This document shows, one piece after another, positions 8,145 to 37,348 of a DNA stretch of 64,000 bases (position 1 is the first letter of the stretch; each line of letters opens with the position of its first letter). Under the pieces are notes generated by a model that was not told the DNA's origin, searched no databases, and was given only the letters and a program-made list of their open reading frames with translations. The DNA comes from Aureimonas fodinaquatilis (GTDB lineage Bacteria > Pseudomonadota > Alphaproteobacteria > Rhizobiales > Rhizobiaceae): positions 1,054,001 through 1,118,000 of the forward strand of contig NZ_VTWH01000001.1 of the NCBI RefSeq assembly GCF_008369445.1. The letters run 5' to 3'. A program made the translations under genes and the position numbers.

Positions 8145-8154
8145 GACGCCTTGT

Positions 8155-8206
8155 TTCGTCGCATTGTCTGGTCGTTGAAACAGTACCGTTTCAACCAGAA
8201 ATGCTC
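8155..8206 (+). repeat. Dispersed palindromic element, copy 1
   Basis: This copy carries the family order TCGCATTGTCT, then GTTGAAAC-AGTACC-GTTTCAAC, then AGAAATGCTCC. Its AAATGC end lies 12 bp before the start codon of the small membrane protein. The next copies lie 240 and 300 bp further on in the same orientation. Confidence 0.85.
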
Positions 8207-8218
8207 CAGTGGAAAGCC

Positions 8219-8413
8219 ATGGTTAGTCTGATGCCACCTCTGATTTTGCTGGGCCTTGTGGGAGCCGCTGCCTATTATGGTGTGCGGCGCATGCAGAAAG
8301 AGGCTGCACGTCTGTCTGCGCGCAACCGGCAAACCGAAGCAGAGCTGAAAAATCAGGCTCATGGCACATTGGTGCGCGGCGAGGATGGAGTGTATCGGCC
8401 CAACATCGATTGA
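8219..8413 (+). CDS. Small single-pass membrane protein
   Basis: The 64-residue protein (MVSLMPPLILLGLVGAAAYYG) has one N-terminal transmembrane helix (about residues 4-22), a basic cytoplasmic turn (RRMQKEAARLSARNR), then a polar tail ending GEDGVYRPNID. No enzymatic domain is visible. The ending resembles small uncharacterised inner-membrane proteins found before glyQ in related bacteria, as I recall. An upstream ATG at 8201 lies inside the repeat element; the ATG at 8219 has GTGGAAAG before it and is preferred. It lies between two groups of the dispersed palindrome. Confidence 0.75.
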   Translation: MVSLMPPLILLGLVGAAAYYGVRRMQKEAARLSARNRQTEAELKNQAHGTLVRGEDGVYRPNID

Positions 8414-8444
8414 GCCTTGCAACTGTCGGAAGCTGCTCCTCACC

Positions 8445-8486
8445 TCATTGTCTTGCCGTGAAACGTAACCGTTTCAACGAGAAATG
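8445..8486 (+). repeat. Dispersed palindromic element, copy 2
   Basis: This partial copy reads CATTGTCTTGCCG, then GTGAAACGTAACCGTTTCAAC, then GAGAAATG. The left part of the usual TTTGTCGCATT segment is reduced to CTCATT. It is paired in tandem with copy 3, upstream of glyQ. Confidence 0.85.
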
Positions 8487-8499
8487 TGAAAACCTTTTG

Positions 8500-8555
8500 T
8501 TTTGTCGCATTGTCTTGCCGTTGAAACGTGACCGTTTCAACGAGAAATGCTTTAG
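8500..8555 (+). repeat. Dispersed palindromic element, copy 3 (closest to consensus)
   Basis: TTTGTCGCATTGTCTTGCCG is followed by GTTGAAACG-TGAC-CGTTTCAAC (9-bp stem, 4-base loop), then GAGAAATGCTTTAG. It ends 68 bp before the glyQ start and is in the same direction as glyQ. The repeats may lie in the glyQ leader RNA. Confidence 0.9.
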
Positions 8556-8623
8556 GGCACTTGACCGGTCCGCCGCACGCATGGCAACTCCGGGCGATAG
8601 TCCAGCTCTGAAAGCCGCTTGCC

Positions 8624-9562
8624 ATGTCCGACCTGCCTCTTCATATGCGCCCGGAACGCTCGTTCCAGGGCTTGATTTTGGCTTTGCACCGCTATTGGGC
8701 AGATTTTGGCTGCGTCATTCTGCAACCCTATGACATGGAAGTGGGGGCCGGCACCTTTCACCCCGCAACCACATTGCGCGCACTGGGGCCAAAACGCTGG
8801 AATGCCGCCTATGTGCAGCCATCCCGCCGGCCGAAAGATGGGCGCTATGGCGAAAACCCGAACCGGCTGCAGCACTATTATCAGTATCAGGTTATCCTCA
8901 AGCCCAATCCTGCCAATTTGCAGGAACTGTATCTCGGTTCACTCAGCGCCATTGGCGTGGACCAGCTGACGCACGACATACGCTTCGTGGAAGATGACTG
9001 GGAAAGCCCGACACTCGGCGCGTGGGGCCTGGGCTGGGAATGCTGGTGCGACGGAATGGAAGTTTCGCAGTTCACCTATTTTCAGCAGGTGTGCGGCATA
9101 GAGTGCTCTCCCGTTGCAGGAGAACTGACATACGGGCTGGAGCGGCTCGCAATGTATGTTCAGAATGTCGACAATGTTTATGAGCTGAACTTCAACGGGC
9201 GGGAAGGCGACGAAAAGGTAACCTATGGCGACGTGTTTCTGCAGGCTGAGCAGGAATATTCGCGGTACAATTTTGAATATGCCAACACCGCAGTTCTGCT
9301 GAAGCATTTTGAAGATGCCGAACGCGAATGCCTGGCATTGCTGGCAGCAGGCGCGCCAGACAGCGCAAGCGCTTTGCATCGCTGTGTTTTGCCCGCCTAT
9401 GACCAGACGATCAAGGCCAGCCACGTCTTCAACCTGCTTGATGCGCGCGGCGTTATTTCCGTAACAGAACGCCAGAGCTACATTCTGCGCGTACGCTCCC
9501 TTGCGAAGGCGTGCGGCGAGGCATTTCTGCTGACCGAAGCAGGCGGTGCCACCGCCATTTGA
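8624..9562 (+). CDS. glyQ: Glycine-tRNA ligase alpha subunit
   Basis: GlyQ is the catalytic subunit of the tetrameric bacterial-type glycyl-tRNA synthetase. The 312-residue length is normal. [19 protein letters not shown] opens the class II core, followed by [17 protein letters not shown] (motif 1 region) and [18 protein letters not shown], and [16 protein letters not shown] lies near the C-terminus. The partner glyS is 1.2 kb downstream, separated by a zinc metallopeptidase gene. Two tandem palindromic elements lie in the 210-bp leader. Confidence 0.97.
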
Positions 9563-9608
9563 GGCAGTTGATTTTATGCCTGTGGTTGTGCCTTTATTCG
9601 GGTAGTCA

Positions 9609-9646
9609 GATTGTCTGCAATGATCTTCCAATCACCTCAGACAATC
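9609..9646. terminator. Inverted repeat downstream of glyQ
   Basis: GATTGTCTG (9609-9617) and CAGACAATC (9638-9646) form a 9-bp stem around a 20-base loop, 46 bp after glyQ. It is followed by TTTTGTTTTGT, so it could act as a terminator. The T-rich stretch is also the start of the next palindromic element. Confidence 0.5.
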
Positions 9647-9654
9647 CAATTTTG

Positions 9655-9710
9655 TTTTGTCCCATTGCCTTGCCGTTCAAACGGAACAGTTTCAACGACA
9701 AATGCTCTAG
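9655..9710 (+). repeat. Dispersed palindromic element, copy 4
   Basis: TTTTGTCCCATTGCCTTGCCG, with a one-base stem mismatch in GTTCAAAC-GGAACA-GTTTCAAC, is followed by GACAAATGCTCTAG. The element ends directly at the ribosome-binding site (AGGAG) of the metallopeptidase gene, 12 bp before its ATG. Confidence 0.85.
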
Positions 9711-9722
9711 CAGGAGAATGGC

Positions 9723-10613
9723 ATGCTTTGGAAAGGCCGCAGGCAAAGCACCAATGTTTCAGACCGACGCGGTGCCGGTGGCGGCGGCGGCTTTGGTGGG
9801 CCGATGCGCATTCCCGTGCGAGCGGGCGGTGGCGGCGGCATCGGCTTTCTGATCATCATCGGCATTTTGTGGCTGGGATTTGGCATTAACCCGCTGACTT
9901 TGCTGGGGTTGGACGGCGGCGGCGGCGCCCCGACCACGCAAACCGCCACGCAGAACCCGGCAGGCCCGCGTGGCGATGACGAGGCCCGCGATTTTGTCGC
10001 GACGGTTCTGGCCGATACCGAAGACACGTGGAACCGGCGTTTTTCCGAATCGGGATCAAGCTATACTGAGCCAAAGCTGGTGCTGTTCACCGGTTCGGTG
10101 CAGTCTGCCTGCGGTATGGCCGGCTCTGCCAGCGGTCCGTTTTACTGCCCCGCCGACCGCCAGGTTTACATTGACCTTTCATTTTTCCGGCAGTTGGCAA
10201 CACAGCTTCAGGCGCCGGGCGAGTTTGCACAGGCTTATGTGATTGCGCATGAAGTCGGGCATCATGTGCAAAACCTGATTGGCGTATTGCCGCGCACAAT
10301 GCAGCTGCGTCAGCAGCTTTCGCCGTCTGATGCCAATGCAATATCGGTGTTGACGGAATTGCAGGCAGACTGCTTTGCCGGGGTGTGGGCGCATGACACG
10401 TTTGAAGCCGGTTATCTGGAGCCGGGCGACATTGAATCGGCTTTGAATGCCGCCACACAGATTGGCGATGACACGCTGCAACGCCGCACGCAGGGCGAAG
10501 TGGTGCCGGACAGCTTTACGCATGGCACTTCCGCGCAGCGCAAAGAATGGTTCAGCCGGGGCTATGAAACTGGCGACACCGATCAGTGCGACACATTTCA
10601 GGGGCGGTTATAA
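9723..10613 (+). CDS. ypfJ: Neutral zinc metallopeptidase, YpfJ/KPN_02809 family
   Basis: The 296-residue protein has a zincin site HEVGHH (VIAHEVGHHVQNL, near residue 175) and a third-ligand region ELQADCFAGVWAH, the layout of the YpfJ family. A glycine-rich stretch precedes one transmembrane helix (about residues 38-57, FLIIIGILWLGFGINPLTLL), so the catalytic domain is probably periplasmic. C-terminal MADDS-like parts are not visible, but SFTHGTSAQRKEWFSRGYETGD is typical of the family. Substrates are unknown. It lies between glyQ and glyS. AGGAG six bases upstream supports the ATG at 9723. Confidence 0.92.
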   Translation: MLWKGRRQSTNVSDRRGAGGGGGFGGPMRIPVRAGGGGGIGFLIIIGILWLGFGINPLTLLGLDGGGGAPTTQTATQNPAGPRGDDEARDFVATVLADTEDTWNRRFSESGSSYTEPKLVLFTGSVQSACGMAGSASGPFYCPADRQVYIDLSFFRQLATQLQAPGEFAQAYVIAHEVGHHVQNLIGVLPRTMQLRQQLSPSDANAISVLTELQADCFAGVWAHDTFEAGYLEPGDIESALNAATQIGDDTLQRRTQGEVVPDSFTHGTSAQRKEWFSRGYETGDTDQCDTFQGRL

Positions 10614-10730
10614 CCGCCTCTGCCACCGCTTTGCCTTGACAGCGCGGCTATGGTGTCGGATTGACCAGTTCACGTTAACACCGGCCCAGTGCCAACCTGT
10701 CTGCCGCAGGACGGGTGGAAAGTATGAGTC

Positions 10731-12857
10731 ATGCCCGATCTGCTTCTTGAGCTTTGTTCCGAGGAAATTCCTGCTCGCATGCAGCGCAAGGCTGCTGGCG
10801 ATCTGAAGAAACTGGTAACTGATGCGCTGGTGGAAGCCGGTCTGACCTATGATGGCGCGCGCGAATACTGGACGCCGCGCCGCCTGGTGCTGGATCTTCG
10901 CGGGTTGGAAGCGCGCTCACGCGATGTGCGGGAAGAGCGCAAGGGCCCGCGCACCGATGCACCGGAAAAGGCCATTGAAGGCTTCCTGCGCGGGGCTGGC
11001 TTGATCTCGATTGAGCAGGCTGAAAAGCGGTCGGACGGCAAAAAAGGTGAGTTCTACGTTGCGGTAATCGAACGTCCGGGTCGTTTGGCGGAAGAGATCA
11101 TTGCCGACATCATGCCTGGCATTATCCGCGATTTTCCGTGGCCGAAATCCATGCGCTGGGGCGCTGCCTCTCGCGAGCCGGGAAGTCTGCGCTGGGTGCG
11201 CCCGCTGCAATCGATCATCTGTCTGTTCGGCCCGGAAAATGGCGAAACCGTTGTCGTGCCGTTCGAGGTTGCGGGCATACAGTCCGGCAACACCACGGTG
11301 GGCCACCGCTTCCACGCGCCGGAGGAATTCGCTGTCCGCCGGTTTGACGACTATGTGGCAAAGCTGGAAAAAGCCCGCGTGGTGCTGGATGCGGAGCGCC
11401 GCAAGCAGATTATCCAAACCGACGCTGAAACACTGGCCTTTGCACAAGGGCTGGAAGTTCTGGCCGATGAGGGGTTGCTGGAAGAGGTCAGTGGTCTGGT
11501 GGAATGGCCGGTGGTGCTGATGGGGTCTTTCGATCCGGCCTTTCTGTCCATTCCGGCCGAAATGATCCAGCTGACAATTCGCACCAATCAGAAATGCTTT
11601 GTCACCCGCCACCGGGACGGTGAGGGGCTGGCTGACAAATTTCTGCTGGTGGCCAATATAGATGCCAGCGATGGCGGAGCGGAAATTGCCCGTGGCAATG
11701 GCAAGGTTGTCAGAGCGCGGCTTTCCGACGCGCTGTATTTCTGGCAGACCGACCAGGGCGCGCTTCCTGACCAGACTGTGTTGCAGGATGCTGCCGGAAA
11801 ATTTGGTCTTGAGCTTGCCAAGCCACTGGACCAGCGTATGGCCAAGCTGGATGCGCTGAATGTAACCTTTCATGCCAAACTGGGAACGCAGGGCCAGCGG
11901 GTGCGCCGCATGGCCGATCTGGCCGTGGCGCTGGCGCCGCTGACCGGCGCTGATGTGGAGCTGACACGCAGGGCGGCGGTGTTGGCCAAAGCCGATCTGA
12001 CCACCGAAGCCGTGGGCGAATTTCCGGAGTTGCAGGGGCTGATGGGCCGCAAATACGCGGCGCTGCAAGGTGAAGCGGACAGCGTGCAGAGCGCAATTGA
12101 AGACCACTATAAGCCACTGGGGCCTGGGGACAGGGTGCCAACCGATAGCGTTGCTGCGACTGTGGCGCTGGCCGACAAGCTGGATACCCTTGCCGGTTTC
12201 TGGTCGATTGACGAAAAGCCCACCGGCTCCAAAGACCCTTACGCATTGCGCCGCGCTGCACTGGGTGTCATCCGCATTCTGCTTGATAACAACATCCGCC
12301 TGCGGCTTGGGCAGTTCATTCCCGCAGGGGATTTGCTGGCATTCTTTCATGATCGGCTGAAGGTGCAGCTTCGCGACAGCGGGGCCCGTCACGATCTGGT
12401 GGATGCGGTGCTGTACGGTTCTGCCGATGACAGCAAGGATGATCTGGTTGACCTTTCGCGCCGGGTTGCTGCCTTGGGGTTGATGCTGGACACGGAAGAT
12501 GGCCGCAACCTTCTGGCCGCCTATCGGCGGGCAGCCAATATTCTGGCAGCGGAAGAAAAGAAGGGCACAGCAGTTGCCGCAGCAGTTGATGCCGGCTTGT
12601 TTGAAGAGGCAGAGGAAACCGCGCTGCTGGAAGCGATTGTGGCGACAGAAACTGCGGTTGAGCAGGCGGTGAGCAGCGAAAACTACCCGGCAGCGGCAGC
12701 AGCCCTTGCCACATTGCGCGCACCGGCTGATGCCTTTTTTGAAAAAGTGCTGGTCAATGCGGAAAACCCGGATGTTCGTGCCAACCGGCTGGCATTGCTG
12801 GCACGCATTCGCACAGCAACCGAACAGGTAGCTGATTTCTCGCGGATTGCCGGATAA
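10731..12857 (+). CDS. glyS: Glycine-tRNA ligase beta subunit
   Basis: The 708-residue GlyS is the tRNA-recognition subunit that pairs with GlyQ. It starts [18 protein letters not shown], the conserved opening of the family, and ends with a helical anticodon-binding-like domain ([27 protein letters not shown]). Length and motifs are normal. It follows the metallopeptidase gene by 117 bp. The gene is separated from glyQ, so the two subunits may be expressed from different transcripts. Confidence 0.97.
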
Positions 12858-13150
12858 TTTCGATCAGTAAAAGTTGAAGAGCCGGAGCCACGCAAGCTGC
12901 AAAGTGCAGTATTAGAGCGTTTACAGGTGTTTTTCGCTTCTGCAGACGCTCGTACATTTACAATCATAGGTTTCGCATCAAGGTTCCGTTAAGGAAAAAG
13001 ACACTTCTTTGCACCTATTCTGCCCTTAACTCGCCAGAATGAGATGGCATAAGCTGCTGAAATGGCAGCAAAAAATATCTTACTTCTCTGTTCGCGGACC
13101 GATTCGGAAAGCGTTTACCGCAGTGCGATGGAGACGAGGGGGCCTAATTT
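12858..13150. other. Intergenic region before the lysozyme gene
   Basis: There is no credible gene. A loose dyad, GAGCGT (12915-12920) with ACGCTC (12946-12951), is the only possible terminator for glyS. The A/T-rich stretch around 12960-13030 is the likeliest promoter site for the lysozyme gene, but no clear -35/-10 pair was identified. Confidence 0.5.
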
Positions 13151-14584
13151 ATGCAAAGTCCGGCTGCGGCGTTAAAGGCCGCAACGCGTTGGATCACGGC
13201 ACTTGCTGCCGGGGCAGTTATTGGTTTGTCATCGCCAGCAATGGCGCTGTGGAACGAGCCCTGGAAAAATGCCGACCGCGCTTTGGTGATCGATGCCTAT
13301 GAGTTCAACCCGATTGATTGGCTTGAACTGACAAGCGACAAGCGCATTGCCGGATTTATCAACAAGGCCTCGGACGGCATGCCACCGGCATGGTCTTGCC
13401 GGGGACTAACAGGCGACGACGAAAACCTTTGCAAAAATCGGTGGTGGAAATACTCCGTTACCAAGGAACTTTATCAGACACGCCGCACCATGGCCAAGCA
13501 GCTTGGCCTGAAATGGGGCGCGTATCATCTGGGCCGCCCTGGCAACCCGCGCGAGCAGGCAGACCATTTTCTGGAATTTGCCGAGCCAAGCGATGATGAA
13601 CTGATCGCCATTGATATTGAGGACAACACCTCTGAGTGGATGTCGCTGGCAGATGCTGAAATCTTCGCCGACCAGATCAAGATCCGCACGGGCCGGTATC
13701 CGGTGCTTTACACCAACGGCTCAACTGCTGCCTATGTGGACAAGAACCGCGAGACTTACCCGCTCCTGTCCCGCCTGCCACTCTGGTATGCCCGCTACCG
13801 GGACGACATTACCGGGCTTTTCCCTCAGGATAGCTGGCCAAGCTATGCCCTGTGGCAGTTTTCCTCGATGCACAATTGCAATGACCGCTCGTGCCCTTAC
13901 CGGGTTAATGGCGCAAAGACCGATATTGACGTGAATGTTTCGCCGCTGAGCGTCGCGGAGCTGAAAAAGGCCTGGCCATTCGGTGAGTTGACCCAGCGGA
14001 AGAATGAAACTGAGCCGACACTGATGGTCAGCGCCTACAATGCAGTAGACGCCGGGCGCGTTGATCCGCTGGCCTTGCTTTCCGAAGCTGCGCGGCGTGA
14101 GCATGCCGGCAAGCCGAACCAGCCTATACTGTCATCGCTGACACGCGGACCAAAGGTCGATCCGGATATGCCGGGCGACCACGCTCCAGTGGGCATGTTT
14201 GCTTCACTGCTGGACTCAATGGACAGGTTTGAAATGCGGATGCGCCGCGTCTGGAACGCCTTGACCGATGATGTTCCCGCTCAGGAAGCACCAAGCCGAT
14301 TGTCTTCCCTGTTGCAGGCCTCTCCGCCGCTGCAACTGGCAAGCGCACCGCGCATACCGGAAGAGGCTCGCTCTTTCATTATTGAGCAGATGAAAAAGGC
14401 ACAGGCCGCACAGGCCGCACAGGCTCAAGCCAAGGCAACGGCTAAGGACGCAGCCGTACCGGTGACTGCGCTGACCGATCTTGCCACAGAACGTGGCGGC
14501 CGGTTGACCGGTGCAGCTTCAGCACTGGAAAGCCTGATGCTGAGCGGTGGGCGTGTGGCTTCGGCTTTTGAGGTCACACAGTAA
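13151..14584 (+). CDS. Secreted GH25 (lysozyme-type) muramidase with C-terminal extension
   Basis: This 477-residue protein carries a signal peptide (basic region then ITALAAGAVIGLSSPAMA, cleavage near residue 32) and a GH25 domain from about residue 45 to 265. The motifs are VIDAYEFN (Asp48), KWGAYHLGRP, and the catalytic DIED (Asp155, Glu157). ALWQFSSMH comes near the domain end. GH25 enzymes cut the beta-1,4 bond between N-acetylmuramic acid and N-acetylglucosamine. The remaining 200 residues are Ala/Gln-rich (AAQAAQAQAKA) and match no domain I know. A role in cell wall remodelling of the bacterium itself or in competition is possible; the sequence does not decide. Confidence 0.88.
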   Translation: MQSPAAALKAATRWITALAAGAVIGLSSPAMALWNEPWKNADRALVIDAYEFNPIDWLELTSDKRIAGFINKASDGMPPAWSCRGLTGDDENLCKNRWWKYSVTKELYQTRRTMAKQLGLKWGAYHLGRPGNPREQADHFLEFAEPSDDELIAIDIEDNTSEWMSLADAEIFADQIKIRTGRYPVLYTNGSTAAYVDKNRETYPLLSRLPLWYARYRDDITGLFPQDSWPSYALWQFSSMHNCNDRSCPYRVNGAKTDIDVNVSPLSVAELKKAWPFGELTQRKNETEPTLMVSAYNAVDAGRVDPLALLSEAARREHAGKPNQPILSSLTRGPKVDPDMPGDHAPVGMFASLLDSMDRFEMRMRRVWNALTDDVPAQEAPSRLSSLLQASPPLQLASAPRIPEEARSFIIEQMKKAQAAQAAQAQAKATAKDAAVPVTALTDLATERGGRLTGAASALESLMLSGGRVASAFEVTQ

Positions 14585-14670
14585 AATTACGTCGCCAATC
14601 AAGTCCATATTGGTTTGTGCATATGGAATCAGCTAAACCCTGTCGAAAGATGGCGTTTGGCGGATCAGAC

Positions 14671-15648
14671 ATGCAGATACTGGACAGTGCGCTGGAGGCT
14701 ACACGCGATGCCGCAGCCGCACGTTTGATGGCCGGTGAGTTGGTGGCCCTGCCAACCGAAACCGTCTATGGCCTTGCCGGTGATGCCACAAACGGCCAGG
14801 CCGTTGCCCGAATATACGAGGCCAAAGGCCGCCCGGCATTTAATCCGCTGATTGCACATGTTTCCAGTTTTGAAATGGCACGGCAATTGGTGGACATGAA
14901 CCCGGTGGCAGAAAAGCTTGCTGCGCAGTTCTGGCCGGGGCCTCTGACGCTGGTTCTGCCTGTGGCGGAGGGCTGTCCGGTGCATCCGCTGGCCACCGCA
15001 GGTTTGCCGACACTGGCTGTGCGCATGCCCGCTGGCCCCATGCGCGACATTGTCAGAAGAGTTGGCCGTCCCCTCGCAGCGCCCAGCGCCAACCGTTCCG
15101 GCGGAGTTTCCCCAACCACAGCGGCGCATGTTGCGCACAGCCTTGGCGAAAAGGTCGGCATGATTGTCGATGGCGGTTCGGCGCGGGTTGGACTGGAATC
15201 CACCATCGTCAAGTCCGGAGAAACAGGCATTTACCTTCTGCGCCCCGGCGGTTTGCCACGTGAGGCGATTGAAGACTTTCTGGGCATGGAGCTGCTCGGC
15301 GGCGGCGAAGGCGGCATCGAAGCGCCGGGGCAGATGACCTCGCACTATGCACCCTCCGGTCATGTGCGGCTGAACGCTGTTGCCGTGAAACCGGGCGAAT
15401 ATCTGATCGGCTTTGGATCGCAGGCACTGCCGGGGCAGGAACATGCTGCCGGTTTTGCCAATCTTAGCCCCACTGGTGATCTGGTTGAAGCCGCGGCAAA
15501 TCTGTTTGCCGTGCTGGCAGCGTTTGATGCGCCGGGCATCCACACCATTGCCGTTGCACCTGTGCCGGAGCATGGGTTGGGACTGGCCATAAACGATCGC
15601 CTGCGCCGCGCGGCTGCTCCCCGGCCGTTTCAACCGGAAAAGCTGTAG
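14671..15648 (+). CDS. L-threonylcarbamoyladenylate synthase, Sua5-type
   Basis: The 325-residue protein makes threonylcarbamoyl-AMP from threonine, bicarbonate and ATP for the t6A37 tRNA modification. The YrdC domain comprises about residues 10-195, with PTETVYGLAGDA at its start and PLAAPSANRSGGVSPT in the middle. A C-terminal Sua5 domain follows (APGQMTSHYAPSG), which distinguishes it from the short YrdC form. The start at 14671 gives MQILDSALEATRDAAAA, matching the family. ATG codons at 14617 and 14650 are in the same frame and less likely. Confidence 0.93.
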   Translation: MQILDSALEATRDAAAARLMAGELVALPTETVYGLAGDATNGQAVARIYEAKGRPAFNPLIAHVSSFEMARQLVDMNPVAEKLAAQFWPGPLTLVLPVAEGCPVHPLATAGLPTLAVRMPAGPMRDIVRRVGRPLAAPSANRSGGVSPTTAAHVAHSLGEKVGMIVDGGSARVGLESTIVKSGETGIYLLRPGGLPREAIEDFLGMELLGGGEGGIEAPGQMTSHYAPSGHVRLNAVAVKPGEYLIGFGSQALPGQEHAAGFANLSPTGDLVEAAANLFAVLAAFDAPGIHTIAVAPVPEHGLGLAINDRLRRAAAPRPFQPEKL

Positions 15649-15667
15649 CTTGTTTGGAGAGCCTGAA

Positions 15668-17101: not shown

Positions 17102-17249
17102 TAACTTGTTCAAGCGTACCATTTGATAACCTTGAATTCAGCTACGAATACTTAACCGCATTTCTTCAGAGGCTCGAAACACACGCCAGCTAGATTGATC
17201 ACAACAGAGCCGGATGACCGGCACGTTCAGATCATGAAGGCGACAGGCA

Positions 17250-17825
17250 ATGAGCATCGTTTCCGGAAAAAGCACAATCAATCCAGCCTGGACACGTACG
17301 CCGATCCGTCTGGACCCGGCTGTGGCAGATCGCAAGATCAGCTTTGACATCATGGACGGCGAGGAACTGGTGTCTTATCGCGTTGATCGCCGCGGAGCTG
17401 TGGTGCGCAGAATGTATGGTGGCAGCAACGTGCCGGTTTCGGTTCCGCTTGCGCCTTCCGCCTTTCGCGGCGTTGCGGCGCGGGCAATGGAAGAGGCGGC
17501 CGGGCATGTTACGGTGACGCTGGAGCTTTTGCATGAAGATGCCAGCCTGAGCGTGCCGCTGCTTGTGGCCACGGACCTGTTTGATGTGGCTGCAGACTGG
17601 CGCAGCTGGGCAGATTTGTTCGCGCTGCCAATGTTGATGGTTGAGGCTGACGGAACTGTGACTGCGCTGGACGACACATTGGGGCAACTGCGTGCAGCCA
17701 GCCCGGCAGACCGGCGCCGCAACTACCACAAGGGCCGCCGCCCACGCTTTCTTGTGCGCCGCAAACCCGGCGGTCTGGCTATGCGGATGAAAATTGAAGG
17801 CCACGAGATCATTGCACGCAAGTGA
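17250..17825 (+). CDS. DUF6101 family protein
   Basis: The 191-residue soluble protein (MSIVSGKSTINPAWTRTPIRLD) matches a family I remember from Hyphomicrobiales. It has the segments VSYRVDRRGAVVRRMYGG and FRGVAARAMEE, and a basic tail (RRRNYHKGRRPRFLVRRK) with RRP repeats. No catalytic residues are recognisable. It has its own 148-bp upstream spacer and no obvious operon partner. Confidence 0.75.
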   Translation: MSIVSGKSTINPAWTRTPIRLDPAVADRKISFDIMDGEELVSYRVDRRGAVVRRMYGGSNVPVSVPLAPSAFRGVAARAMEEAAGHVTVTLELLHEDASLSVPLLVATDLFDVAADWRSWADLFALPMLMVEADGTVTALDDTLGQLRAASPADRRRNYHKGRRPRFLVRRKPGGLAMRMKIEGHEIIARK

Positions 17826-17847
17826 ACACAAACAATTCACATAACTG

Positions 17848-17890
17848 CGCTTGCTGTTGAAACGGTTGCGCTTCAGCGACAAGACACGGC
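17848..17890 (-). repeat. Dispersed palindromic element, degenerate reverse-oriented copy 5
   Basis: GTTGAAACGGTTGCGCTTCAGCG, followed by ACAAGACACGGCAACAAAAC, aligns with the reverse complement of the element. The left stem end is imperfect (A opposite C). Its AAATGC end, mostly lost, would face the 3' end of the DUF6101 gene. It is therefore an exception to the rule that copies face a start codon. Confidence 0.55.
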
Positions 17891-18045
17891 AACAAAACAG
17901 CGAACTGGAGCAGTCCAGGCTCTGACTTTCTTGCTTTCACTCCCTGCATTTGCGTCAAATCAAAGAGGTCGAGACATTTTTGCGCTTCTATTGGAAGTGG
18001 AAGTGTTTCAGGCGCTCTGTTTGTCTGGCAGTCAGGAGATGGATT

Positions 18046-19122: not shown

Positions 19123-19132
19123 ATCCCTGAAG

Positions 19133-19164
19133 CATTTCAGGTGGTCTTTCGATCGCCTGAAATG
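19133..19164. terminator. Bidirectional hairpin terminator between ADH and ubiA
   Basis: CATTTCAGGTGGTC (19133-19146) and GATCGCCTGAAATG (19151-19164) form a 14-bp stem with two G-U wobbles and a TTTC loop. It lies between the convergent alcohol dehydrogenase (ends 19122) and ubiA (ends 19185). It is followed by TAGTTTCAATGGCAAATGC, which resembles the right end of the dispersed palindromic element. Confidence 0.7.
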
Positions 19165-19184
19165 TAGTTTCAATGGCAAATGCT

Positions 19185-20186: not shown

Positions 20187-20313
20187 CAGGCGCGAGGAAT
20201 GACGTGAATTGCGGCTGCGTCAAGCAGTTTTGCGTTAATTTCAACGGTTTCATGCTTGACCCGGTGGCTTGGTTGAACCTAATCCGAAGTGTCCCAGCAG
20301 ATTGACGGAAATT

Positions 20314-21573: not shown

Positions 21574-21618
21574 TGACGGCTTTTTAAACTGAAATTGCCG
21601 CAGGCACTGGCCAATTCT

Positions 21619-21652: not shown

Positions 21653-21666
21653 AGGAGGCGCGGACT

Positions 21667-25211: not shown

Positions 25212-25223
25212 CCACGGAAGGAA

Positions 25224-27323: not shown

Positions 27324-27368
27324 GCTGGTCACAACCTGTGGTAAATTGACGCGATTGCCAGACCGCTT

Positions 27369-27411
27369 TAGACCGTTTCACGCGATCACCTCATCGCAGA
27401 AAAACGGTCTA
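27369..27411. terminator. Hairpin after fadJ
   Basis: TAGACCGTTT (27369-27378) and AAACGGTCTA (27402-27411) form a 10-bp stem; inside, GCGAT and ATCGC can pair again. It lies 45 bp after the fadJ stop and before another palindromic element. No T tract follows directly, so an intrinsic terminator role is a guess. Confidence 0.5.
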
Positions 27412-27419
27412 ACTCTCTG

Positions 27420-27475
27420 TTTTGTCGCATTGTCTTAAGGTTGAAACGATTCCGTTCCAACAAGAAATGCTCTAG
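27420..27475 (+). repeat. Dispersed palindromic element, copy 6
   Basis: TTTTGTCGCATTGTCTTAAGG is followed by GTTGAAACG-ATTC-CGTTCCAAC (one mismatch in the right arm), then AAGAAATGCTCTAG. It ends 36 bp before the start of the second acyl-CoA dehydrogenase gene, and faces it. The flanking text is nearly identical to copy 3. Confidence 0.88.
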
Positions 27476-27511
27476 CTGATCATCTGACATCGCTTTTTTA
27501 GGAAAAACTGG

Positions 27512-29269: not shown

Positions 29270-29283
29270 ATGGGGCGTGACTG

Positions 29284-30051
29284 ATGGCAAATCTGGTAGA
29301 AACGGCACTGGCTGACGGCGTTCTGGCAATTCGTCTGAACCGGCCAGATAAGAAAAATGCCTTGAACCAGCCAATGTATGCCGCGCTGACTGAAGCCTTT
29401 GCCAAGGCTGATGCGGATGCTCAAGTGCGGGCAATTCTTATGGAAGGTGCACCCGGTGCCTTCTGCGCCGGTAACGACATTGCCGATTTTGCCAGCTATG
29501 CGCAAACTGGCGAAGGAATAGAGCACACATTCACCTTCATTCAGGCGCTGGGGCAGGTGAACAAGCCGCTGGTTGCCGCAGTGGACGGCCTGGCCATTGG
29601 CATTGGCACAACAATGTTGTTTCACTGCGACCTTGTTTATGCAGCGCCGAATGCAATGTTTCGCACCCCGTTTCTGGACCTGGGCGTGGTGCCGGAAGCC
29701 GGGTCCAGCCTTTTGGCACCGCGCATTATGGGTCGGCAAAAGGCCTTTTCCCTATTGGTCATGGGCGATGCTTTCAGTGCCACGCAGGCAGAAGCGGCCG
29801 GTTTTGTAACCGCAATAGTGCCCAGCGAAAATTTGCACGAGACCGCGCTGAATGCGGCAATGAAACTTGCCAAAAAACCACCACAAGCTCTTGAAATTAC
29901 ACGCAATCTTCTGCGCGGTGACCGGCAGGATATTGTGGAACGCATTGCGCAGGAGGCCAAGCACTTTGAAAAGCGTTTGAAGTCGCAGGAAGCGCAAGCC
30001 GCATTCGCTGCCTTTATGGCGCGGTCTTCTTCTGCCGCACGTGGCGGATAA
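29284..30051 (+). CDS. Enoyl-CoA hydratase/isomerase family protein
   Basis: This 255-residue crotonase-fold protein has LNRPDKKNALNQPMYAALTEAF near the N-terminus and GAFCAGNDIADF plus AVDGLAIGIGTTMLF, which form the oxyanion region. A role in beta-oxidation next to the acyl-CoA dehydrogenase is likely; isomerase or detoxifying activity is possible. Its last 38 bp overlap the end of the convergent DedA gene, an unusual tail-to-tail overlap. Confidence 0.88.
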   Translation: MANLVETALADGVLAIRLNRPDKKNALNQPMYAALTEAFAKADADAQVRAILMEGAPGAFCAGNDIADFASYAQTGEGIEHTFTFIQALGQVNKPLVAAVDGLAIGIGTTMLFHCDLVYAAPNAMFRTPFLDLGVVPEAGSSLLAPRIMGRQKAFSLLVMGDAFSATQAEAAGFVTAIVPSENLHETALNAAMKLAKKPPQALEITRNLLRGDRQDIVERIAQEAKHFEKRLKSQEAQAAFAAFMARSSSAARGG

Positions 30052-30610
30052 GCAGGAACAGGGCAATTGCTGCTGCCGCTGCGCCTGCCACAAACACGGT
30101 GTGGCGGCCAAAATGCAGGTAATGTTCAAACTTCGCCCCGAAATAATAGGAAGCGAGGGTCCAGAAACCCGCCCATAGCAAAGCGCCGCTTGCATTGGCC
30201 AGAAAAAACCGCAGCCAATGCATGCCGGTGATGCCCGCGACAATGCCATTAAGCTGACGCAAAACTACGAAAAATCTTGCAAAAACAACAACCCACGCGC
30301 CATAGCGGAGAAACTGCTTCTCCACCGCGGCAAAGCGTGGTTCGGTCAGGCCAATTTTCTGGCCATAACGGGAGATGATCGGCCTTCCCACCACCCGGCC
30401 AACAACATAACCCAGATTATCGCCCAGCACGCCGCCGGCCCAGGCGGCCAGAAACACCGTCACAATATCCAACTGGCCTTGCGCTGCCAGCAGGCCCGCT
30501 GCAATCAACAGGCTTTCACCAGGCAAGGGAACGCCGGTGGATTCAAAGAAGATGATGACGAAAATAACAATTGCGCCATAGGCATGGAGAAAGCCGATCA
30601 CTTCATGCAT
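30014..30610 (-). CDS. DedA family membrane protein
   Basis: The 198-residue protein has the SNARE-associated/DedA fold. FESTGVPLPGESLLIAAG near residue 23 is the signature, and several transmembrane helices follow with YGAWVVVFARFFVVLRQLNGIVAG. DedA proteins are membrane proteins of lipid-carrier and proton-dependent transport; substrates differ by paralogue and cannot be read here. It is the last gene of the long leftward block, 29 bp after the RNA methyltransferase gene. Confidence 0.9.
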   Translation of the reverse strand: MHEVIGFLHAYGAIVIFVIIFFESTGVPLPGESLLIAAGLLAAQGQLDIVTVFLAAWAGGVLGDNLGYVVGRVVGRPIISRYGQKIGLTEPRFAAVEKQFLRYGAWVVVFARFFVVLRQLNGIVAGITGMHWLRFFLANASGALLWAGFWTLASYYFGAKFEHYLHFGRHTVFVAGAAAAAIALFLLIRHVRQKKTAP

Positions 30611-30639
30611 TCAGACTTCCCCCCGATCATCATGCGGCT

Positions 30640-31872
30640 TTACTTGTCGCGCACCAGCAGCGCAACCGCTTCCACGTGGTGTGACCACAGAAACTGATCG
30701 ATTGGCGTGGTTGAGACAAGCCGAAAGCCGCCATCCAGCAAAAGTTTGACATCTCTTGCCAAAGTCAGCGGATTGCACGACACGGCTGCAACGCGTTGTA
30801 CGCTGGAAGCTGCAAGCTCGATAGCCTGCGCTTCAGCTCCGGCACGCGGCGGATCGAACACCACCCCTTCAAATCTGGAAAGCTCCTTGCGTGTCAAAGG
30901 TCGCCGGAACAGATCGCGACGTTCGGCTGTCAGTGGCTTGAGGCCATTGGCCACGCGCCGCGCCTGATCCATCACTGCCAGGGCCGGTGCGTCACTTTCC
31001 ACAGCGTGGGTTGCGTGATTTCGGGCAAGCCGCAGGGCAAAAGTCCCGATACCGGAAAACAGATCGGCAACGGTTTTCAGGCCCGTCATATGACCGGTAA
31101 CCAATTCTGCCATGGCGGTTTCAGCGCTGGCTACCGCCTGCAGAAAACCACCGGGCGGAAACGATACCGGTATGGTGCCGGCCATGATCATCGGCCTGGC
31201 ATATTCAATCAGAATTTCGCCATTGACCGACAAGCGTGCAATGCCCGCGGCGGCTGTGGCGCTGATGGCCGCCGCCCGCGTCTTGTCATTCAGCTTTGCG
31301 CCGGTTTCAATGGCAACATCCAGCCCCTGGCCGGTTGCCGCCACCGTCAGGCGTGTTTCGCCCTTGCGGTCCAGCATCAGGCTGGACAGGCGGCGCAAAG
31401 GCTCAAAGGCCGCAACGATTTCCGGCACCACAACAAGGCAGGTTTCAATCGGCACAATGCGGTTGCTCATCGCCTCGTGAAAGCCGAACATCAACCGTGG
31501 GCCAGCCCTGACGGCGGAAAACACGGCGCGGCGGCGACTGGCCGGTGCGCAGGGAACCAGCGGCTGCACCTCCGTTTCGATTGACACGCGCCGATAGGCC
31601 TCGATCACCAGATCGCGTTTGAAAGCGGAATAGACTGCCGGGCTCGCATGCTGCAATTCACAGCCGCCGCACAGGGTGAAATGCGGACAGGGCGCATCCC
31701 GGCGCTCGGGCGAAGCCAGTTCAATTTCCTCAATGGTCGCCCGCTGACCGCTGCGGCGGGCCAGCACGCGCTCACCCGGCAGGGAGTAGGGCACATAGGC
31801 AAGTCCGCCCGCTCCACGGCCAATGCCGTCGCCCTTGGCGCCCAATGTCTCAATGCTGATTGTTTCTGTCAC
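30640..31872 (-). CDS. Class I SAM-dependent RNA methyltransferase (RlmD/TrmA-like)
   Basis: The 410-residue protein belongs to the m5U RNA methyltransferases. It has a TRAM-like N-terminus (GIGRGAGGLAYVPYSLPGE) and a cysteine-rich iron-sulfur site (PCPHFTLCGGCELQH). VADLFSGIGTFALRLARN is the SAM-binding loop, and FDPPRAGAEAQ with SCNPLTLARD carries the nucleophilic cysteine. Target uridine (23S rRNA or tRNA) cannot be decided. It overlaps tlyA by 4 bp (ATGA), which indicates coupling. Confidence 0.92.
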   Translation of the reverse strand: MTETISIETLGAKGDGIGRGAGGLAYVPYSLPGERVLARRSGQRATIEEIELASPERRDAPCPHFTLCGGCELQHASPAVYSAFKRDLVIEAYRRVSIETEVQPLVPCAPASRRRAVFSAVRAGPRLMFGFHEAMSNRIVPIETCLVVVPEIVAAFEPLRRLSSLMLDRKGETRLTVAATGQGLDVAIETGAKLNDKTRAAAISATAAAGIARLSVNGEILIEYARPMIMAGTIPVSFPPGGFLQAVASAETAMAELVTGHMTGLKTVADLFSGIGTFALRLARNHATHAVESDAPALAVMDQARRVANGLKPLTAERRDLFRRPLTRKELSRFEGVVFDPPRAGAEAQAIELAASSVQRVAAVSCNPLTLARDVKLLLDGGFRLVSTTPIDQFLWSHHVEAVALLVRDK

Positions 31873-32633
31873 GCCTTGCGCCCTGCCAACAAAAATTCAA
31901 GATTACCATCACCGCCTTCGATGGGTGAAGGCAGAATGCCTATGGATGTCCAGCCAGGCTGATCACTCAGCCAGTCTGCCAATGATTGTGCGATTTCATG
32001 TCCCAGCGATCTGTCACGCACGATGCCGCCTTTGCCAATTGCACTTCGGCCAGCCTCAAACTGCGGCTTGATCAGAAATATTCCGACTGAGCCCGGTGCG
32101 GCCAGGTCCAGCGCCGGCGGAAGTGCCAGCTTGAGCGAGATGAAGCTGACATCAGAAACCAGAAGATTGATATCGCGATGCTCAGCCGGTGCCAGCGCCA
32201 GATGGTCCCGTGTCAGCTCGCGCGCATTCAGCCCATCAATACGTGTCACGCGCGGGTCGTTTGCAATGCGAGGATGCATCTGCCCATGGCCCACATCAAT
32301 GGCCACGCAATGTGCCGCTCCGTGGTTCAGCAGAACCTGTGTAAAGCCGCCGGTCGACGCGCCAACATCCAGAGCGTGACGCCCGGTGACCGAAAGCTGA
32401 AAGCCACTGAGCGCCGCTTCCAGTTTCAGCGCTGCGCGCGAAACATAGTCGCCGGCCGGGTCGCTTACCGCAATATCCGCATCGTGAGCTACAAGCTGGC
32501 CCGGCTTGGCAACAGGCTGACCATTGACCGCAACATGGCCGCGCATGATGGCGTCTCGTGCTCTGGCACGGCTTTCACACAAGCCGCGCTCTGCCAACAG
32601 AACATCCAGACGTTGCCGTAAACCTTCGCTCAC
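31869..32633 (-). CDS. tlyA: TlyA family rRNA methyltransferase
   Basis: The 254-residue protein has an N-terminal S4 RNA-binding domain ([19 protein letters not shown]) and a FtsJ-type SAM domain ([18 protein letters not shown]). Homologues methylate 16S and 23S rRNA 2'-O positions; the name haemolysin A is historical. It overlaps dxs upstream by 4 bp and the RNA methyltransferase downstream by 4 bp, forming a tight dxs-tlyA-methyltransferase operon. Confidence 0.93.
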
Positions 32634-34594
32634 GCTTGCAGAACGCGCTTGCCGCTTTCGCCCAACGCGCGGAACACGCAGTCAACAATGCCCGCCTTGT
32701 CCAGACCAGCCTTTTGCAGCATTGCTTCCGGCGCTGCATGCTCAACAAAACTGTCAGGCATGGTCATGGGCCGCACTTTCAGCCCGTGGTCCAACAAACC
32801 GTTGCGCGCCATATATTCCAGCACCTGTGCAGCAAACCCGCCGCTTGCACCTTCTTCCAGCAAAACCAGCACTTCATGGTGCTGCGCCAGTTGCCGTATC
32901 AGATTTCCATCCAGCGGTTTGGCAAAACGCGCATCGGCAACCGTGGTGGAAAGGCCGAAACTGTCCAGCTCATCCGCTGCTGCCAAAGCATCAGACAGCC
33001 GCGCGCCAAAGGAAAGAATGGCCACTTTCGACCCCTCACGCACAATTCTGCCCTTGCCGATTTCCAGCGCCTGGCCACGCGCCGGCAGGTCCACCCCTGT
33101 ACCATTGCCACGCGGATAGCGAAATGAAATCGGGCCATCGTCGTACACAACCGCTGTGCGCACCATGTGCCGCAACTCTGCCTCATCGGCCGCTGCCATA
33201 ACCACCATGCCCGGCAGGGGGGCCAGAAACCCGGTGTCGAACGAGCCTGCATGCGTTGGCCCGTCCGCACCGACAAATCCCGCACGGTCAATGGCAAAGC
33301 GCACTGGCAGGCTTTGTATGGCAACGTCGTGCACGATCTGGTCGTAAGCGCGTTGCAGGAACGTTGAGTAAATGGCGCAGAAGGGTTTGTAACCCTCACT
33401 TGCCAGACCCGCAGCAAATGTTACCGCATGCTGTTCGGCAATGCCGACGTCAAAGCTGCGTGTGGGGAATGCCTCACCAAACAGATCCAGCCCGGTGCCA
33501 TTGGGCATGGCAGCATTGATGGCAACGATCTTGTCGTCATCCCGTGCTTCATCAATCAAACTCTGGGCAAAAACCCGCGTATAGCTGGGCGCGTTGGCCT
33601 TGGCCTTTGCCTGTTCCCCCGTAACCACGTCAAATTTGCTGACACCGTGATATTTGTCGGCAGAAGATTCGGCCGGGCCATAACCTTTGCCCTTCTGCGT
33701 GACAACGTGAACGAGGATGGGGCCCTCGGTCGCGTCGCGCACGTTTTTCAGCACCGGCAGCAAATGGTCCAGGTCATGGCCGTCAATTGGCCCGACATAG
33801 TAAAAGCCGAGTTCTTCAAACAGTGTGCCACCTGTCAGGAACCCGCGCGTGAACTCTTCGGTTCTGCGCGCACCCTCCCGCATGAATTCGGGCAGATGGT
33901 CGGTGATCTGCTTGGCGCGGTGACGCAGCGAACGGTAGGTCTTGCCGGAAACCAGCCGGGCAAGATAAGCGCTCATTGCTCCGGTCGGCGGTGCAATCGA
34001 CATGTCATTGTCGTTCAAAACAACAATCAACCGTGCATCCAGCGCCCCGGCGTTGTTCATCGCCTCATAGGCCATACCGGCAGACATGGCGCCATCGCCG
34101 ATTACCGCCACAACATTGTTGCGCCTGCCCGACAGATCACGCCCGACTGCCATGCCAAGCCCGGCGGAAATGGAGGTTGAAGAGTGGCCCGCGCCAAACG
34201 GATCATAGTCGCTTTCTGCGCGTTTGGCGAAGCCGGACAACCCGTTTTCCTGCCGGATACTGCGCATGCCCTTGCGGCGACCGGTCAGGATTTTGTGCGG
34301 GTAGGCCTGATGTCCGACATCCCAGATCAGCCTGTCTTCCGGCGTGTTGAACACATAGTGCAACGCGACCGTCAACTCCACGACACCCAGCCCGGCACCC
34401 AGATGCCCGCCGGTTTTCGACACGGCCTCGACAAGGTCTTGCCGCACCTCTTCCGCCACCTGCTTCAGGCGGGATTCCGGTAAGGCACGCAAATCAGCCG
34501 GAGAGGCGATCGCGTCCAGCAAAGGTGTATCTGGCATATCCGACACGGAGGAGCTTAACCTTTCAAACTCAGCCGCCACGTCAGGCGCTGACAT
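32630..34594 (-). CDS. dxs: 1-deoxy-D-xylulose-5-phosphate synthase
   Basis: Dxs condenses pyruvate and glyceraldehyde 3-phosphate with thiamine diphosphate in the first MEP step. The 654-residue length is normal. The thiamine site includes [18 protein letters not shown] and [12 protein letters not shown]; the transketolase-type pyrimidine region is [19 protein letters not shown], and the C-terminal domain has [15 protein letters not shown]. It heads dxs-tlyA and shares the pathway with ispE and ispH elsewhere in this window. Confidence 0.97.
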
Positions 34595-34712
34595 TGTTTC
34601 AACATGCCGTTGTTTTGAGGCATTTTAAAGCTGATTGTAGAAGATGGTTCTTTAAACCGGGAAAGGCAGGGCTTTCCGCTCACTTATTGACGATGTTTTT
34701 AACATAGTGTGT

Positions 34713-34979
34713 TCAGGCGGGGTCCAATGGCTCGGTGCCCACAGGCTTGCCGCGCGCCAGCTTGATTTTCTCCACCTTGTCTTCGGCGGCTGTCAGCAGT
34801 TTTTCAGAATGCGCCTTCAGCTTCTCGCCCCGCTCGTAAATGCGAATGGCGGTTTCCAGGGGAACATTGCCGCGCTCCAGATCCGAGACGATTTTTTCCA
34901 GCGCGGCCAGCGCGGCTTCAAAACTGAGCTGTGCGATGTCGCTGTCATCTGCTGGAATGGCAATTGTGTTGTCAGACAT
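34713..34979 (-). CDS. xseB: Exodeoxyribonuclease VII small subunit
   Basis: XseB is the small subunit of the nuclease that degrades single-stranded DNA with XseA. The 88-residue protein has the signature [19 protein letters not shown] and the helix [21 protein letters not shown]. The frame is open to 35087, but the ATG at 34979 with AGGAAAAG upstream gives normal size. It is 8 bp after the histone deacetylase-like gene. xseA is not in the window. Confidence 0.93.
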
Positions 34980-34987
34980 GTCTTTTC

Positions 34988-35914
34988 CTATCCGGTCATC
35001 AATCGCTGGACATGGGCTGCGACCGATTTTCCAAGGCCGGTCAGATCGTAGCCACCTTCCAATACGGAAACCAGCTTGCCACCGCAAAAACGATCCGCCA
35101 CGCCCATAAGCTGCGCGGTGGCCCAGCTGAAGTCGTTTTCCGTCAGATTGATTTCTGCCAGCGGGTCGCGGTGATGCATATCGAACCCAGCTGAAATGAT
35201 CAGAAAATCCGGCTGAAAATCATTCAGCGCAGGCAGAACTCGGCTGGTGAAGGCTTCACTGAACGCCTCACCACCATCGCCTGCGCGCAGCGGCGCATTA
35301 AAAATATTGCCAGCGCCAGTTTCCGAAACTGCACCGGTGCCCGGGTAAAGCGGCATCTGATGCAGCGAGGCATAAAGCACGCTTGGGTCTTCCCAGAAAA
35401 TGTCCTGGGTGCCGTTGCCGTGGTGCACATCCCAATCCACGATAGCCACGCGGGAGGCACCATGGCGGGTTTGCGCATAGCGGGCCGCAATGGCGGCCTG
35501 ATTGAACAGGCAGAACCCCATGGCTGTTTCACGCTCGGCGTGGTGGCCGGGCGGCCTTGCCGCCACAAAACCATTATCGATTTCGCCGGAAAACACATCA
35601 TCAACCGCTGCGCATGCCGCGCCAACGCCGTACAGTGCTGCCGCGAAGCTGCGCGGGCTGACAATCGTGTCATCATCAATGCGCGCCAGCCCCTCGGACG
35701 GAGTGGCCTTGGCTACGCGGCGCACGTAGGTTTCAGGATGGCAAAGATAGACATCCTGCAAGCGACCTTCGGGCGCTTCCTCGCGCTCCAACAGGTGAAA
35801 CGTCTCGTCCTCCAGCGCCGATTCCACAGCGCGCATGCGCTCCGGCCGCTCCGGGTGCCCCGGTCCGGTCAGATGCTCGGCAAAAATAGCGTTGTGGTAG
35901 AGGCGCGTTTTCAT
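34988..35914 (-). CDS. Histone deacetylase family protein
   Basis: The 308-residue protein is a zinc-dependent deacetylase of the class II/acetylpolyamine amidohydrolase type. It has [32 protein letters not shown] (catalytic His pair), and [15 protein letters not shown] (zinc Asp and His). In bacteria the substrate may be acetylated polyamines or lysines; it cannot be told here. Its ATG at 35914 overlaps the aroC stop (ATGA), an arrangement I recall for this group of bacteria. Confidence 0.92.
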
Positions 35915-37002
35915 CCACGCCCTGTCTGGCCACGGTGGCGCAAATAGTGGTCGGCGATTGCACATGCCACCATTGCCTCGCCAATCGGCACCGCTCGAAT
36001 GCCCACGCAGGGATCATGCCTGCCCTTGGTCATCACATCCACCTCCTGTCCATCCGCATCAATTGAGCGGCGTGGGGTTAGAATGGATGATGTAGGCTTG
36101 ACGGCAAAGCGGGCAATAACCGGTTGGCCGGTGGAAATGCCGCCCAGAATGCCACCTGCGTGATTGGACAGGAAAACCGGCTTGCCGTCCGGGCCGATAC
36201 GGATTTCATCGGCATTTTCTTCGCCGGACAGCGTAGCTGCCAGAAAGCCGTCACCAATTTCAACGCCTTTTACAGCGTTGATCGACATCAGATTGCCGGA
36301 AATGTCCTGGTCCAGCTTGCCATAGAGCGGGGCACCGAGGCCGGGCGGAACGCCCTCGGCCACGACTTCAACCACGGCGCCGATTGAAGAGCCGGACTTG
36401 CGCACTTTGTCCAGGTCTTCCGCCCAGAGTACGGCAGTTTCCGCGTCGGGGCAGAAGAACGGGTTGTTATCAACCTCTGCCCAATCAAATCTTTCACGTG
36501 CAATGGCGCGGCTGCCAATCTGCACCAATGCTGCGCGCACCTGAAGTCCCGGCACAATTTTTCGGGCAATTGCGCCTGCTGCAACCCGTGTTGCGGTTTC
36601 CCGCGCAGAGGACCGTCCACCACCGCGATAATCGCGCACGCCATATTTCATGTCGTAGCTGATATCGGCATGTCCTGGGCGGTAGCGGCGAGCGATATCG
36701 GAATAATCCTTCGACCGCTGATCGACATTGCGAATTTCCATGGCGATCGGCGTGCCGGTGGCAACCAGCGTGCCATCGGCTTCTTCCATCACCCCGGACA
36801 GAATTTCAACCGTGTCCGGTTCCTGCCGCTGCGTGGTGTAGCGCGACTGGCCGGGGCGCCGCTTGTCCAGAAATGACTGAACTTCGGCGCGAGTGAACCG
36901 CAGGCCAGGAGGAGTGCCATCAACAATGCAGCCAATGGCCACGCCGTGGCTTTCACCAAACGTGGTAACGCGGAAAAGATGGCCGAAACTGTTGTGCGAC
37001 AT
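35911..37002 (-). CDS. aroC: Chorismate synthase
   Basis: AroC makes chorismate from EPSP, using reduced FMN. The 363-residue protein starts [20 protein letters not shown] and has [19 protein letters not shown] near residue 125, the conserved FMN-binding signatures. The open frame to 37245 reads through the tandem repeats upstream and gives a repetitive sequence, so the methionine at 37002 is the start. The four-copy repeat array begins 82 bp upstream of the start codon. Confidence 0.97.
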
Positions 37003-37348
37003 GAAACCTCTATACAGGCGCGCTTTTGCTGCGCCGGTTTTAGGCAGGCTGCGGCCATGCGTCAAATCATTAAGCGTACCCAAGCATTTCTCGTTGAAGC
37101 GAGTTCGCTTCAACGGCAAGACAATGCGACAAAGTAAAGAGTCTTTGCATTTCTCGTTGAAGCGAGTTCGCCTCAACGGCAAGACAATGCGACAAAGTAA
37201 AGAGTCTTTGCATTTCTCGTTGAAGCGAGTTCGCCTCAACGGCAAGACAATGCGACAAAGTAAGGGCTTTGTATTTCTCGTTGAAGCGAGTTCGCTTCAA
37301 CGGCAAGACCCGTTAAACCGGGCATCAGTCTGAATTTGCGGAACTGCG
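37003..37348. other. Intergenic region between aroC and the histidine phosphatase
   Basis: The 346-bp stretch between two leftward genes carries a four-copy tandem repeat (described separately). The remaining 80 bp next to aroC hold its ribosome-binding site and probably the promoter. No separate gene is visible; the three-frame open reading on both strands comes from repetition. Confidence 0.7.
37084..37310 (-). repeat. Tandem array of four palindromic elements (63/63/61-bp period)
   Basis: Units start at 37084, 37147, 37210 and 37271. Read on the minus strand each is the same order as the dispersed element: TTTGTCGCATTGTCTTGCCG, then CGTTGAAGCG-AACT-CGCTTCAACG, then GAGAAATGC. Stem bases differ from copy 3 in a compensated way (AAGCG/CGCTT instead of AAACG/CGTTT). 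Units 2 and 3 have one mismatch (GCCTC). The AAATGC end faces the aroC start at 37002. Confidence 0.95.

Follow-up and report, generated by a model that had tools for sequence, protein, structure and literature searches.

The window analysed here, 64,000 nucleotides of the Aureimonas fodinaquatilis contig NZ_VTWH01000001.1 (positions 1,054,001 to 1,118,000; source genome of 3.93 Mb in 8 contigs, 98% complete), carries between its genes a short palindromic repeat, found, for example, upstream of a small open reading frame (ORF) at 8219 (element 8104..8209) and, as two tandem hairpins (8437..8555), upstream of a glyQ-like gene at 8624. An original prediction made from the letters alone had described it as a hairpin with compensated stem changes that recurs between genes, of the repetitive extragenic palindromic (REP) or miniature inverted-repeat transposable element (MITE) type. 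We consider it probable that the family consists of gene-less MITEs of about 105-107 bp, of the IS630 (Tc1/mariner) group of insertion sequences (IS), in which a T-rich linker joins a hairpin A to a hairpin B. The 20-mer TTTGTCGCATTGTCTTGCCG occurs seven times in the window at ≤3 mismatches, versus 0.02 expected from shuffles, and a covariance model built from the genome's own copies of hairpin B (R1) retrieves ten copies at E ≤ 1.4e-6, five on each strand (Table 1), the weakest being those that start at 17844 and 37276; every locus originally listed is among the ten.

The outer GCATT and AATGC segments, whose pairing the original prediction had missed, are complementary to each other, so that the stem of hairpin B extends further and contains a bulge. 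Several hairpins B are preceded by a second palindrome (hairpin A), whose arms vary more, and the complete copy begins with TAGACCG and terminates with GCTCTAG, i.e., its inverted ends are flanked by TA. Neither the second palindrome nor the TA-flanked ends had been noticed in the original prediction. This plan is clearer outside the species, in congeners and in other genera, as in CTAGAGCATTTCCGGTGAAC...GTTCACCGGAAATGCTC, linker, CGCATTATCC-stem-loop-stem-TGGAAATGCTCTAG. Copies also cluster, 18 of 48 sampled in the genome sitting in six arrays; at one locus (L202), whole A+B units adjoin via a common TTAGAGCG, as expected from insertion of one unit at the TA end of a second. Two hairpin B copies elsewhere in the genome (L001, 1457-1516, and L005, 1498-1557), in which the 3' arm is longer by four bases, come close to perfect palindromes and may represent an older or a corrected form.

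Table 1. Copies of the element and related arrays in the window (R1 and R2, covariance models; starts of hairpin B are those given by R1).
Feature	Position	Strand	Basis
Complete element, 107 nt including TA on the left and TAG on the right: hairpin A 27369-27411, T-rich linker, hairpin B 27419-27475	27369..27475	+	Hairpin B, R1 E=7.1e-16; both hairpins in DNA fold, z -5.85
Palindrome A 8104-8145 and hairpin B 8153-8209	8104..8209	+	R1 E=2.8e-15; fold z -8.6 (8108-8209)
Two tandem hairpins B (8437-8492, 8499-8555)	8437..8555	+	R1 E=3.9e-11, 3.2e-18
Palindrome A (stem 9609-9646) and hairpin B (9654-9710)	9605..9710	+	Hairpin B, R1 E=2.4e-13; fold z -2.68
Degenerate hairpin B	17844..17898	-	R1 E=1.4e-6
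Tandem array of four hairpins B (starts 37079, 37142, 37205, 37276), spacing about 63 bp; 37276-37309 partial	37079..37309	-	R1 E=1.6e-16, 5.4e-15, 5.4e-15, 7.9e-7
Tandem array, 59-bp unit; probably another subfamily of the same kind	54335..54645	-	One unit, R2 E=2.3e-4; R1 only E=3.1
Tandem array, 55-bp unit, palindrome with GCAT flanks; possibly another subfamily	4671..4945	-	Likeness by eye; no R1 or R2 match listed

The expectation that the repeat numbers many copies per genome was borne out: an R1 search of the whole genome gave at least 150 copies (the best 150 of 2,674 first-look candidates, every one a match), and sampling at 48 copies per 800 kb leads to an estimate of about 236. For this sample, we took forty 20-kb stretches (800 kb) of the genome together with the window, which yielded 83 R1 matches at E ≤ 0.05; 59 copies were counted, namely the matches below 1e-3, minus one overlapping a better match on the opposite strand and plus the 54-kb unit found with the broader model R2 described below, with 24 weaker matches left out. 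All 59 have their midpoint between genes, in DNA of which 9.8% is non-coding according to our own simple gene caller (also the source of the gene neighbours), and the dispersed, intergenic, MITE-like character first proposed for the family is supported. At the 41 sites where both flanking genes were called, neighbours are co-directional in 30 cases, convergent in 6, and divergent in 5, compared with 241, 42, and 98, respectively, for background gaps of at least 60 bp. The stop codon of a neighbouring gene lies at the 3' end of the element in 5 of the 48 sampled copies.

R1 returned only 0-9 copies per congener, and we had considered the family as nearly confined to its own species; this mostly reflects R1 itself, since copies in congeners share the architecture but carry other stems. 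We also used the broader R2, built from 44 copies (23 from congeners and the family, 21 own), on 52 genomes at E ≤ 1e-3, the named genomes corresponding to 27 of 80 glyQ loci. R2 detects the family in 35 of the 52: at least 109 matches in the genome under study, by far the highest count, 0-19 in each of 20 Aureimonas congeners, 72 in Shinella yambaruensis, 55 in Ochrobactrum teleogrylli, 23 in Allorhizobium, 22 in Rhizobium rhizogenes, 21 in Microvirga, 20 in Agrobacterium, and 18 in Pseudochelatococcus. At that threshold, it finds none in Jiella, Pseudohoeflea, Nitratireductor, Afipia, Bradyrhizobium, Rhodopseudomonas, Methylobacterium, Salinarimonas, Pelagibacterium, or two Pseudovibrio. Across the 80 named glyQ loci, R1 gave one match, in Shinella, and a regular expression gave the same single match. 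The G+C content of the window's genome is 57%, versus 65-71% at the glyQ loci of the 20 congeners.

Over most of its length, the window is syntenic with two congeners, G005 and G003, so that gaps between the same genes can be compared; congener gaps of up to 3 kb were used, a limit that sets aside the 27-kb site. Gaps holding an element or array are longer than in G005 in six of seven comparable cases (by 303, 116, 131, 82, 152, and 298 bp), with a median difference of 0 and a maximum of 98 bp for 47 element-free gaps; relative to G003, they are longer in five of six cases (by 93-355 bp), with a median of 0 and a maximum of 125 bp for 43 element-free gaps. There is no R2 match at E ≤ 0.1 across 160 kb of congener DNA and, taken with the longer gaps, this suggests that the majority of these insertions are specific to this lineage. 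The gaps with the 4671-4945 and 54335-54645 arrays exceed their congener counterparts by about 250-355 bp. The gap at 37083-37349 is the sole comparable element site where the congener gap is the longer one (395-401 bp), with no R2 match there.

Insertion itself can be read on plasmids. A complete Allorhizobium copy matches 30 plasmid records, 18 of them from Shinella, and when seven Shinella-type plasmid loci were queried with their flanks, an empty site was readable at two. At the first, two strains of S. sumterensis read ...ATC-C-TA-GAGCATTTCC...GGAAATGCTC-TA-G..., and Shinella sp. H4-D48, which is empty, reads ...GTC-CTAG-GCC.... In H4-D48, a response regulator gene ends at 604 and a convergent kinase gene at 601, the CTAG being common to both; in S. 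sumterensis, the same genes end at 604 and 704, at the edges of the element. Two S. oryzae plasmids carry partly deleted copies at this site, one without hairpin A and one without part of B. At the second site, S. oryzae Z-25 is occupied, with a short deletion in the left flank and TATAGC as left end, and three other plasmids carry CTAG. C-TA-[element]-TA-G thus stands against a single CTAG at two loci, which indicates a TA duplication of the IS630 type. Many Shinella-type copies are also found on plasmids filed as Roseateles sp. XES5 (UNVERIFIED_ORG; NZ_CP084754.1, NZ_CP084753.1), a label that may be wrong.

The outer ends point to the same group. A search for IS630 genes with NF033545, covering 21 genomes of the genus and 29 others, returned 60 loci, of which 43 were scanned for ends: 12 have paired ends starting with TAGAGC, 1,025-1,056 bp apart. 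Such IS630 are present in the Aureimonas congeners G005, G010, G011, G016, G017, and G019 and, beyond the genus, in other Hyphomicrobiales (Afipia, Allorhizobium, Methylobacterium, Martelella, Pelagibacterium, and Pseudochelatococcus). Past TAGAGC the sequence is variable, most often running to NNNTCC, and C precedes TA at 22 of the 23 ends printed, giving CTAGAGC. The ends of the element match these terminal inverted repeats, Shinella copies and many congener copies having CTAG...CTAG-like ends, and several congeners (e.g., G005, G011, G017, and G019) hold both element copies and such an IS. Two further loci have convincing pairs of other ends (TAGTGC in Aquibium, TAAAGC in Allorhizobium), and the remaining scanned loci gave no convincing end pair, several being fragments or lying at contig ends. 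One Bradyrhizobium genome has 29 IS630 matches and no R2 match; three of its loci were scanned and have no TAGAGC-paired ends.

We propose the following scenario. The outer ends (TA-GAGC, then about RTTTCC) match the terminal inverted repeats of IS630-group transposons, and an IS630 transposase supplied in trans, presumably by a former partner in this lineage, would excise the element and integrate it within a CTAG site, at the TA, which is duplicated. As the element starts with GAGC and finishes with GCTC, insertion into a CTAG stop codon would leave TAG on either side, so that the ends of the neighbouring genes are preserved. Tandem multiplication, either of hairpin B by itself or of entire A+B units, would come later, as would the occasional loss of hairpin A. 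The two arms would be kept matched at the DNA level, most likely by hairpin-templated copying from arm to arm, or else by selection on the DNA palindrome.

One has to keep in mind that a number of observations weigh against this scenario. The transposase step is one that we infer, because no matching IS630 was found in the genome itself, and the distribution of the IS over the genera does not follow that of the element: the genome's one partial NF033545 match (E=1.8e-12) showed no TAGAGC end, and a search of the genome with a congener transposase gave E=0.0053; R2 finds nothing in Afipia, Methylobacterium, and Pelagibacterium, which do have IS630 with TAGAGC ends, and no IS630 was found at E ≤ 1e-20 in Shinella yambaruensis, Rhizobium rhizogenes, or Agrobacterium, with their 72, 22, and 20 copies. 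Other IS630 end pairs occur in these genera, TAGTGC in Aquibium and TAAAGC in Allorhizobium. The genome's own copies are worn, only 15 of 60 countable ends still reading TAG (11 of 25 in congeners and the family, 16 of 21 in other genera). Empty sites come from Shinella plasmids, none having been seen for copies of the window's own species, and five of the seven plasmid loci queried gave no readable one. Finally, the additional 82 and 93 bp at 9654 fall inside the element-free range (maxima 98 and 125 bp), and the gap of the 37-kb array is 46-55 bp shorter than in congeners.

The compensated stem changes deserve a closer look. The switch from AAACG/CGTTT to AAGCG/CGCTT is real, and it is the commonest double change in an alignment of 30 own copies, where the stem pair first singled out is A-U in 16, G-C in 11, and unpaired in 3. 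The example at 37 kb is one inherited event, since these copies form one tandem array; two of them read GAGGCG against CGCTTC, leaving a G.T in the stem. In the 30 copies, both sides changed in 8 of 16 pairs (3.2 in shuffles) and in 21 cells (9.8 in shuffles), and the covariation score is 0.145 versus at most 0.111 for slid structures; shuffles ignore relatedness, and slid structures allow for it. The 44 copies behind R2 have 85 double-changed cells versus 24.4±5.1, and a score of 0.301 versus 0.123. In an alignment of 147 matches (143 distinct, 97 own), which was fitted to the structure, the values are 237 cells versus 65.0±5.9 and 14 pairs versus 8.4 in shuffles, with a score of 0.282 versus 0.126 when shuffled and at most 0.085 for slid structures. 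Double changes are, thus, in excess over both kinds of control, and the excess grows once relatives are added.

Such covariation, strong as it is, could reflect an RNA element, the transcribed hairpins being selected as terminators, processing sites, or mRNA stabilizers; the copies do adjoin genes, and 26 REP elements of Sinorhizobium meliloti are reported to be transcriptionally active (PMC2873474). RNA selection on the transcribed strand is expected to leave more G-U than A-C mismatches, which is not expected from a process acting on double-stranded DNA. The stems of the 147 matches hold 48 G-U, 66 A-C, and 117 other mismatches, and the own copies that are sense to both neighbours (n=24) hold 9 G-U and 14 A-C; antisense copies (n=10) have 5 and 12, convergent ones (n=8) 2 and 2, and divergent ones (n=5) 6 and 4. 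With G-U not above A-C overall or in sense copies, there is no sign of selection at the RNA level in these small numbers, and the covariation loses its force as an argument for an RNA fold; the other form allowed by the original prediction, a DNA palindrome, may still apply. Strand bias is also slight (hairpin B shares the strand of the genes at 19 of 30 co-directional sites), Rfam gave no match at its gathering threshold, and a terminator scan of positions 8000-9800 placed no site on the elements there. We, therefore, regard an RNA element as unlikely. Hairpin-templated copying of one arm onto the other would yield matched changes in a single step, and one has to be cautious in RNA discovery, as DNA palindromes can give strong covariation; counting G-U against A-C helps to discriminate.

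Two other explanations concern what moves or keeps the repeat. Short palindromes, intergenic and in many copies, are also what one would see for REP sequences moved by a REP-associated tyrosine transposase (RAYT), but the TA duplication at empty sites fits IS630, and no Y1 transposase (PF01797) was found in the genome at E ≤ 1, a search that was positive in 10 of 14 control genomes (with 98% completeness and 8 contigs, a missed gene is possible). We give this explanation hardly any credit: of the two types first proposed, the MITE-like one is supported, and the REP one is not. It is slightly easier, though still very improbable, to see here a regulatory repeat kept for its CcrM sites (GANTC), as was proposed for the CcrM-associated intergenic repeats (CIR), whose architecture, as described, is similar (PMC2229807). 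GANTC is present in the loop region of hairpin B in 11 of 53 own copies (in shuffles, 3.4 on average and 9 at most), but 42 of the 53 lack it there, and a control motif of the same form, ACNGT, is as common (12 of 53). As a defining feature, GANTC is weak.

An IS630-group MITE as proposed here can be compared with several known systems. IS630-family transposons share the TAGAGC ends (at 12 of 43 loci scanned) but are about 1.03-1.06 kb long, with a transposase gene that the element does not have. Insertion of IS630-type elements at TA with duplication has been reported (PMC2170065), in a paper that also cites Tenzen & Ohtsubo 1991, whose title states the CTAG preference of IS630. PMC2245857 and PMC10969869 were consulted as well. 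The RUP repeat of Streptococcus pneumoniae, linked to IS630-Spn1, is close in size and habit (107 bp, intergenic, ends matching IS630, TA targets), but its partner IS resides in the same genome, and these accounts do not describe it as two arms and a linker (PMC2229807, PMC3049150).

The alphaproteobacterial repeats are closer in plan. The Rhizobium-specific intergenic mosaic elements (RIME), reportedly described by Osteras in 1995, are said to be intergenic, with two large palindromes in about 108 bp, a likeness that goes by description and not by sequence; RIME are not known to have an IS partner. The Bru-RS of Brucella (Halling & Bricker 1994) are also an intergenic palindromic family, likened here without sequence comparison, with a 118-bp model and 222 members listed in B. 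melitensis (PMC2267715). The CIR of Caulobacter, Brucella, and other alphaproteobacteria are presented in a 2007 review, citing Chen & Shapiro 2003, as about 110 bp long, with two long inverted repeats as arms, a linker, TA ends, and an intergenic location (PMC2229807), a plan that 27369-27475 shares; compared by description only, our family differs in that a terminal-loop GANTC is not general and in its IS630-linked ends and TA duplication. The review calls for more information on how CIR move and, among the repeats treated, ties only RUP to an IS (PMC2229807). Among the matches listed in the open-licence literature, we found no tie of CIR, RIME, or Bru-RS to IS630; as the search was limited to such papers, the novelty of the link is provisional. 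It is possible, at somewhat less than even odds, that CIR, RIME, and Bru-RS form one superfamily of IS630-group MITEs, whose GAGC...GCTC ends are harmless in CTAG stop codons and whose stems evolve by arm-to-arm DNA copying that mimics RNA covariation. With clean empty sites in hand, a testable source can be named for such repeats, namely IS630 transposases with CTAGAGC ends.

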